Origin: Gammaproteobacteria bacterium
GTDB taxonomy: Bacteria; Pseudomonadota; Gammaproteobacteria; GCA-001735895
Assembly (NCBI GenBank): GCA_029862005.1
Contig: JAOTYD010000003.1
Location: 134,158 to 187,827, forward strand
Reading direction: 5' to 3'
DNA: 53,670 nucleotides
How positions within the stretch are numbered: position 1 is the stretch's first letter; each line of letters opens with the position of its first letter. Positions 21,978 through 39,070 of this stretch are shown in pieces. A model generated the notes under the pieces. That model did no database searches. It saw nothing but the letters and a program-made list of their open reading frames with translations, and had not been told where the DNA came from. The position numbers and the translations under genes are program-made.

Positions 21978-22111
21978 TTGCCATGGCGAGTGGATCCCCA
22001 CAAAAGGCGCTTCCAACCGGCGCAGGCGCCGGTTGGTCCATCCATGGAATCGCTTGGAGCGCGGCATCCCTGCCGCGCTACACTTTTGTGGGGATCCACT
22101 CACCGTGGCAA
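21978..22111 (+). repeat. Hairpin repeat element, copy 1
   Basis: 134-bp palindromic element in the gap between the GGCT gene and convergent plsB. Outer arms of 28 bp (21978-22005 and 22084-22111) pair with two mismatches. The 86-bp core (22002-22087, from AAAAGGCGC to TACACTTTT) is 81/86 identical to that of copy 2 at 38959-39044. Two internal hairpins: 22013-22036 (11-bp stem) and 22059-22078 (8-bp stem, loop TCCC). It could also act as a bidirectional terminator for the two converging genes. Confidence 0.9.
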
Positions 22112-22203
22112 GAATCATGTCCAATATCGAAATACTTTTTCAGGGAGCCGCAGGCCACCCAGTCAGTCCCGAGGAGCCTCATTGGTTGCCGATTGGCGAC
22201 AGG

Positions 22204-38932: not shown

Positions 38933-39070
38933 GGGACCCACCCCCGAAAGAACGCCGCAAAAGGCGCTTCCAACCAGCGCGAACGCCGGTTGGTCCATCC
39001 ATGGAATCGCTTGGAGCGCGGCGTCCCTGCCGCGCTACACTTTTGCGGCGTTCTTTCGGGGGTGGATCCC
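38933..39070 (+). repeat. Hairpin repeat element, copy 2
   Basis: 138-bp palindromic element, same orientation as copy 1. Outer arms of 30 bp (38933-38962 and 39041-39070) pair with one mismatch; they share no sequence with the arms of copy 1 beyond the AAAA/TTTT border. Core 38959-39044 (86 bp) is 81/86 identical to copy 1. Internal hairpins: 38970-38993 and 39016-39035; in the second, A in copy 1 is replaced by G, giving a G-T wobble that keeps the stem. It lies between soxZ and mtaB. Confidence 0.9.

Follow-up and report, generated by a model that had tools for sequence, protein, structure and literature searches.

The window analysed here is a stretch of 53,670 nucleotides from a gammaproteobacterial genome (hereafter the source genome), and it contains two copies of a repeated element. 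Copy 1 is flanked by a gene for a GGACT protein on the plus strand and a gene for glycerol-3-phosphate acyltransferase on the minus strand, as identified by Pfam. The open reading frame (ORF) caller had scored these neighbours as tandem, and the Pfam assignments thus place copy 1 between converging genes too. Copy 2 is located between soxZ and a radical-SAM/UPF0004 gene, which are arranged in tandem, and the strand that bears its GGA loops (the GGA strand) is antisense to both of them. The strand of the element that matters is the minus strand of the window for both copies, and the features are as follows:

21980..22109, minus strand (as RNA): copy 1 of the element, 22-nt arms and 86-nt core
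22088..22109, minus strand: copy 1, 5' outer arm of the RNA; 20/22 positions pair with 21980-22001
21980..22001, minus strand: copy 1, 3' outer arm of the RNA, paired with the other arm
22002..22087, minus strand: conserved core of copy 1 (86 nt; RNA strand AAAAG ... CTTTT), one of about 30 in the genome
22065..22072, minus strand: copy 1, loop of hairpin H3, CAGGGATG, predicted CsrA site 1; GGA in 96/99 anchored copies
22039..22046, minus strand: copy 1, loop of hairpin H2, CATGGATG, predicted CsrA site 2; GGA in 93/96 anchored copies
22013..22036, minus strand: copy 1, hairpin H1 (CCAACCGGCGC stem), without a GGA loop
38937..39066, minus strand (as RNA): copy 2 of the element
38959..39044, minus strand: copy 2, conserved core, 94% identical to the core of copy 1
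39022..39029, minus strand: copy 2, loop of H3, CAGGGACG, predicted CsrA site 1
38996..39003, minus strand: copy 2, loop of H2, CATGGATG, predicted CsrA site 2

The exact unit of the element consists of a 22-nt arm, an 86-nt core and a second 22-nt arm. An initial annotation of the window had described two copies at these positions, with arms that are self-complementary within each copy, and this description proved accurate: the cores agree at 81/86 positions (94% over 86 bp), and 20/22 (copy 1) and 21/22 (copy 2) arm positions outside the core are complementary. In both window copies the AAAAG and CTTTT ends inside the core add to the arm pairing, and a few extra outer pairs extend the stems to the 28-30 bp given previously. 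When folded as RNA of the minus strand, copy 1 and copy 2 reached -91.8 and -92.4 kcal/mol (z -10.4 and -11.2, respectively), and 0/200 shuffles were as good. The arms of the two copies had also been called unrelated to each other. They are indeed copy-specific, but not wholly unrelated, as a weak consensus of roughly GCnACCnCGGG...GC can be recognised. The further statement that core substitutions keep an internal hairpin pair does not hold, as the change concerned (CATCCCTG/CGTCCCTG on the plus strand) falls on the variable N of a GGA loop of the minus strand.

A whole-genome search with the core recovered about 30 copies in the source genome, namely 30 full or partial copies registered as loci and one further full-length match. 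Among same-genus genomes the core was present in 6/23 further ones searched, and it was found in 0/15 genomes of other families. A genus search with the window DNA added G043, G044 and G045 as carriers, giving a total of at least 9/30 same-genus genomes, which is a lower bound since scoring covered the best candidates per genome. The exact core pattern occurred in 77 stretches of genome contigs, all titled as gammaproteobacterial MAGs and one of them as Pseudomonadales. A phage origin was rejected, the same pattern being present in 0 viral contigs. Altogether 101 distinct copies were collected from the source genome and its relatives, and both boundary motifs are exact in 90 of them. Five copies (L024, L025, L027, L029 and L030) have a longer core of 100-101 nt with a different hairpin on the H3 side, and arm pairing is lost in L024.

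In the 30 copies of the source genome, arm pairing continues to position 22 and then drops towards background, and 609/660 arm positions form Watson-Crick pairs. Among the 99 collected copies with both full arms, 94 pair at 17 or more of the 22 positions. Mean arm pairing was 20.2/22 within copies versus 11.2 for arms taken from different copies, for which pairing at 17/22 or better was reached in 321/9702 combinations. Loci were regarded as orthologous when at least 100 bp of flank matched on the side without neighbouring repeats. This gave 24 groups with 43 pairs and 946 arm positions, the pairs within one group not being independent. At these positions 623 were unchanged, 228 had changed on both sides and were still Watson-Crick, 82 had changed on one side, and 13 showed other double changes. 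Of the one-sided changes, 50 produced a GGA-strand wobble, 14 produced the opposite type and 18 gave other mismatches. Thus the arms change in place yet stay paired, and they are not simply imported from target sites.

Covariation was evaluated in an alignment of 39 copies with the exact 86-nt core, in which one copy per arm cluster was drawn from 55 copies pairing at 17/22 positions or better. In the outer helix, both sides change in 25/27 pairs. Across the structure as a whole, 95.8% of the cells pair, compared with 79.9% in shuffled and 38-43% in slid alignments, although the first figure leans upward because the rows had been preselected for pairing. The covariation score was 0.446 versus 0.125 for the control, and changes on both sides were counted in 289 cells versus 65.8 in shuffles. 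The outer arms therefore co-vary across the collected copies, a check that the initial annotation had proposed. Its suggestion of RNA-like divergence, with the outer stem free to change as long as it pairs, is borne out by these 25/27 covarying pairs, by the 228 compensated positions and by wobbles that favour one strand.

This strand preference was measured by counting the arm mismatches by type. In the ATCC orientation, which is the plus strand for both window copies, the arms contain 68 A.C and 14 G.T mismatches (94 copies, the five poorly paired ones being left out). The A.C:G.T ratio was 61:14 when counted once per arm cluster (p = 4e-8) and 37:12 with one copy per cluster (p = 5e-4). In the source genome alone the asymmetry was not significant (17:11, p = 0.34), and in the relatives alone it was 51:3 (p = 3e-12). 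As an A.C mismatch on one strand corresponds to G.U on the other, the RNA of the other (minus) strand keeps its pairing. Two further repeat families of the same design, B and C, adjoin core copies. Family B in its GGA orientation has 29 G.T and 0 A.C mismatches (40 complete copies, not de-duplicated for orthology). The asymmetry of family C is weak, with 5:2 in the inner arm (p = 0.45), 16:6 in the outer arm (p = 0.05) and 21:8 in both together (p = 0.02; 39 complete copies). Where B and core copies are adjacent in the source genome, their GGA strands are opposite in 6/8 pairs (C3:115 kb, C2:114 kb, C13, C30 and two on C1) and run in the same direction at C2:144 kb and, with a partial B, at C3:95 kb. 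Hence a regional mutation bias cannot give both asymmetries. YPAL-like elements from other genera (see below) gave a G.U test of 34:17 (p = 0.024; 31 well-paired copies, 11/42 poorly paired ones dropped) and of 12:8 in G181 alone, where the arms are much alike between copies. This result points weakly in the same direction.

On the minus strand the loops of H2 and H3 read CA-N-GGA-N-G, which we take to be the signature site of CsrA/RsmA. Among the 101 core copies, GGA is kept in 96/99 anchored copies for H3 and 93/96 for H2. In the neighbouring families it is kept in 40/40 anchored copies for loop B2, 38/39 for loop C1 and 27/27 for loop C2, for which 12/39 family C copies were not anchored; the pattern used for loop B1 anchored none of the 40 family B copies. 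The bases on either side of GGA are both variable, and H3 also occurs in a one-base-shorter form, CAGGA[C/T]G. The distance from GGA to GGA is 26 nt in the core, 23 in B and 28 in C. Conserved GGA loops, varying neighbours and a dimer-type spacing are the sequence characteristics of CsrA-binding RNA, and all of them are found here. The loops are predicted sites, and each pair would suit both binding faces of one CsrA/RsmA dimer.

The genome encodes one CsrA, which is identical at 51/58 positions to chain 1y00_A 'Carbon storage regulator', presumably E. coli CsrA, and which has L4 and R44, two residues that we take to have known CsrA roles. Two divergent CsrA relatives were also seen, one of 106 aa with two CsrA domains in tandem (G000:C56:6472-6762, L157) and one of 62 aa (C10:7772-7900, L158). 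The RF00018 (CsrB) model gave 0 matches in the source genome, which is a weak negative because E. coli alone was positive among its 14 controls. On contig C1, 5 ANGGAN loops were counted in 102 hairpins of both strands versus about 0.4 expected under uniform loops, an excess that probably consists of the elements themselves and so gives no independent support.

With regard to genomic context, 19 of the 30 copies in the source genome lie between converging genes, compared with 14/76 gaps of at least 100 bp on contig C1 (p = 7e-8). These counts come from a rough ORF caller, with one more copy lacking an upstream call, and copy 1 alone was corrected. In most copies the RNA can be 3' untranslated region (3' UTR). 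The GGA strand is antisense to both neighbours in 5/30 copies, including copy 2, whose RNA would therefore need its own start or a long read-through. As for a conserved promoter, no column exceeded 0.55 bit within 80 nt of the arms in 93 copies. The element was also rejected as an intrinsic terminator, since runs of at least four T in the 12 nt following the stem were found in 2/98 copies on the GGA strand and in 3/98 on the other. A T-run does follow the stem in L006.

Family B has 9 matches in the source genome and is present in 17/31 genus genomes, and family C is present in 13/31. Family C passes the cut-off of the Rfam model RF01731 (TwoAYGGAY) in 12/31 genus genomes, or in 14/31 at E 0.001, with 3 matches above the cut-off in the source genome. 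Beside copy 1, at 22136-22190, the window contains what appears to be half of a family C outer stem (TTTTTCAGGGAGCCGCAGGCCACC...GGTTGCC), and a complete family C hairpin is found at the orthologous place in G002 (L079). The 86-nt family itself does not reach the curated RF01731 cut-off of 43 bits and passes no Rfam cut-off. Two core copies of the source genome (on C18 and C7) score 37.5 and 36.4 bits with RF01731 on the GGA strand. The window copies gave no RF01731 match even at E 10, and none was found in the window or in L001/L015. Rfam ncS025, MIR839, MIR1151 and Ysr224 were rejected as identities, all of their matches being far below the cut-offs.

TwoAYGGAY (RF01731, clan CL00106) is listed as a probable RNA in the portion of PMC2864571 available to us. 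The accessible sections of PMC4333381 predict two CsrA sites for it, mention tandem G.A pairs and describe weak conservation of its external stem. The 86-nt family shares this architecture, with two neighbouring A-N-GGA-N hairpins on one strand inside a variable, poorly conserved outer stem, and with tandem G.A stem pairs of the kind given in those sections, here in H3 of about half of the copies. Unlike TwoAYGGAY, it includes a third hairpin, reaches about 30 copies in a single genome and scores below the cut-off. The initial annotation had recognised no described family. This stands for the 86-nt family, which is below every Rfam cut-off, but its architecture is that of TwoAYGGAY and its neighbour families are TwoAYGGAY and YPAL-like.

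By eye, the core of family B (two hairpins: GAGCCTACATGGATGTATTTACGGCG, CAAGGATG loop) is contained in the RU-2 sequence printed in the accessible pages of PMC2759123. Judged from the same pages, YPAL/RU-2 of Yersinia resembles family B in its core and in being a dispersed, intergenic, long hairpin. It differs, again by eye, from the 86-nt family in its core. In the available part of PMC2229807, YPAL is treated as a mobile miniature DNA element. No link to CsrA was found in the YPAL literature as far as it was available (PMC2759123 and PMC2229807 among the sources), and the literature search recognised no work joining CsrA to such repeats or to YPAL. The word CsrA is absent from the main texts of PMC3733652, PMC2229807, PMC2267715 and PMC5193452. 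The YPAL-type hairpin GAGCCTACANGGANGTATTYACGGCG, the second hairpin of family B, was found with at most one mismatch in 31/369 genomes of the class sample, the source genome included. Up to 424 pattern matches occurred in one genome (G279), and the reversed control pattern gave 0. YPAL-type copies from other genera (L308-L347) have long copy-specific arms in G113 and G269, in addition to the much-alike arms of G181.

The loops of the decoy RNAs CsrB, CsrC, RsmY and RsmZ have the form CAGGA(U/C/A)G, and these RNAs are single genes with many sites. The element resembles them in presenting GGA hairpin loops on one RNA strand and differs in having two sites per copy and dozens of copies. GTAG REPs are described in the available text of PMC3733652 as dispersed extragenic palindromes of 20-40 bp, often between converging genes. 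On that description the element is like GTAG REPs/REPINs in being a dispersed extragenic palindrome frequent between converging genes; it is unlike them in its long outer stem, which changes from copy to copy, and a link to a transposase was not found. GTAG precedes H3 of the core, its last two bases being paired. An integron attC site was rejected, since the conserved part of the element is its centre and no attC box, in the usual definition of that box, was seen.

The cores of one genome also resemble each other in a specific manner. Two facing columns of H3 are either C/C, Watson-Crick with G, or A/A, forming tandem G.A. The source genome has 25 copies in the C state, 4 in the A state and 1 unread. 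The C:A counts are 6:1 in G020 and 4:0 in G044, which are C-type genomes, and 1:21 in G002, 1:12 in G009, 0:9 in G007 and 1:9 in G045, which are A-type genomes. The state depends on the genome more than on the locus, as it differs at the same locus in 11 of the 13 orthologous groups that join the source genome to an A-type genome (the exceptions are the L001 and L029 groups). This pattern points to homogenisation of cores between copies, presumably by gene conversion or an equivalent process with the arms outside the tract. Overall core identity, which was 0.926 within the source genome (23 cores), 0.915 for orthologous copies (9 pairs) and 0.894 between genomes, supports homogenisation mildly, and the paired C/A switch is the stronger sign. 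As orthologous cores are slightly more alike than those of different genomes, homogenisation is incomplete.

Element-free sites were compared for copy 1, as the initial annotation had proposed. At this site G045 and G002 carry the element with arms that are different but still paired. No exact inverted repeat longer than 9 bp was present in 7/7 measured element-free regions. In L080, L085, L086, L087 and L090 the alignment of the upstream gene extended to, or almost to, the end of that gene, and it ended early in L083 and L088, the less clean members of the seven. Outside the seven, L091 and L094 have unrelated sequence between the two genes. Also outside the seven are L081 (G040) and L089 (G043), in which other large hairpins occupy the intergenic site; the hairpin belongs to family C in L081 and to no family studied here in L089. 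As the flanks of the element-free relatives are 70-79% identical, the region may have been remodelled.

The initial annotation had considered that the element targets the centres of existing palindromes. Copy-specific arms are what such targeting would leave, and precedents are reported: YPAL targets span or adjoin dyad symmetry according to the available part of PMC2229807, and REP dimers lie within long palindromes in A. variabilis (PMC3733652). The large hairpins of the core-free L081 and L089 also fit. The seven regions without an inverted repeat over 9 bp do not, nor do the fixed arm length, the weak arm consensus and the change of arms in place within orthologous loci, and five non-core inverted repeats in 354,640 bp include none that resembles an empty target by eye. 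The idea thus found no support at the one site examined and is disfavoured from that site; we regard insertion into palindrome centres as extremely improbable. A mobile element of single-stranded DNA is another explanation, in which an HUH transposase (Y1/RAYT-type) acts on the folded strand and pairing is maintained because mobility requires it. The element is indeed multi-copy, intergenic and present at some loci only, the genome has two Y1_Tnp genes, and GTAG stands at the foot of H3. G.T is a better DNA mismatch than A.C, so a folded single DNA strand would likewise favour G.T. On this explanation a stranded copy should decay, yet compensated arm changes continue at fixed orthologous loci; neither the core nor the B loop patterns occur in the Y1 loci L160 (2239 bp) and L161 (3327 bp), and the GGA loops of three families are left unexplained. 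We consider it quite unlikely.

Another reading is an mRNA stabiliser without any role for CsrA, located between converging genes and either structural at the 3' end or terminator-like. It would agree with the enrichment between such genes, with the very stable stem and with the T-run in L006. It is nevertheless unlikely, since T-runs after the stem are rare on either strand and such a role does not explain why GGA is kept while both adjoining bases vary. It could also be argued that template-switch correction of an imperfect palindrome keeps the arms complementary at the DNA level without selection. The very small number of mismatches is in line with this, as is the orthologous copy L143, whose left arm resembles one relative and whose right arm another (L053, L114), like a half-corrected state. 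However, strand symmetry would then be expected, and the ratios of 61:14 in the core family and 29:0 in family B favour wobbles on the GGA strand. Such correction may add to arm change, but as the whole explanation it is very improbable.

The 86-nt family is a real, selected RNA element. It is most likely a high-copy, two-hairpin element of the TwoAYGGAY kind, predicted to bind CsrA. The copies, their pairing, the compensated change within loci, the strand, the GGA signature and the presence of CsrA can all be read from the sequences. From them we infer transcription, CsrA binding and a decoy or 3'-end role, and we consider it probable that the copies are CsrA-binding RNA elements, scattered over the genome, with an outer stem that drifts as far as pairing allows. 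A structured RNA of about 130 nt would be read from the minus strand of the window, and likewise from copies dispersed over the genome. Its outer stem of 27 bp would enclose a junction of three hairpins, two of them with CA-N-GGA-N-G loops 26 nt apart. Each copy would be retained at its own locus as RNA, with the core held and the GGA loops almost invariant. The outer stem need only pair, so compensated drift would make the arm sequence copy-specific, and the cores of one genome would to some degree be homogenised between copies. As most copies have converging genes on either side, the RNA would usually fall within a 3' UTR. There it may serve CsrA as a local binding site or act as one decoy among many, and may cap the transcript end.

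It is conceivable, though doubtful, that the 86-nt family, the YPAL-type hairpin and TwoAYGGAY belong to one functional class, a distributed CsrA sponge. If so, CsrA would be jointly titrated by two-site clamps, dozens to hundreds of them in 3' UTRs, and coupled to transcription across many operons, whether these clamps replace a single CsrB gene or act alongside one. The reading of the copies as CsrA-binding RNA links three things that have been described separately, namely variable-arm palindromes, YPAL repeats and TwoAYGGAY RNA, and offers a testable function for dispersed palindromic repeats hitherto described as miniature mobile DNA. Moreover, comparing G.U with A.C in copy-specific arms is a cheap indicator of the RNA-acting strand in a repeated palindrome. 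If CsrA does bind these elements, its regulation would in these bacteria be spread over many loci, which would alter how CsrA targets and decoys are counted.
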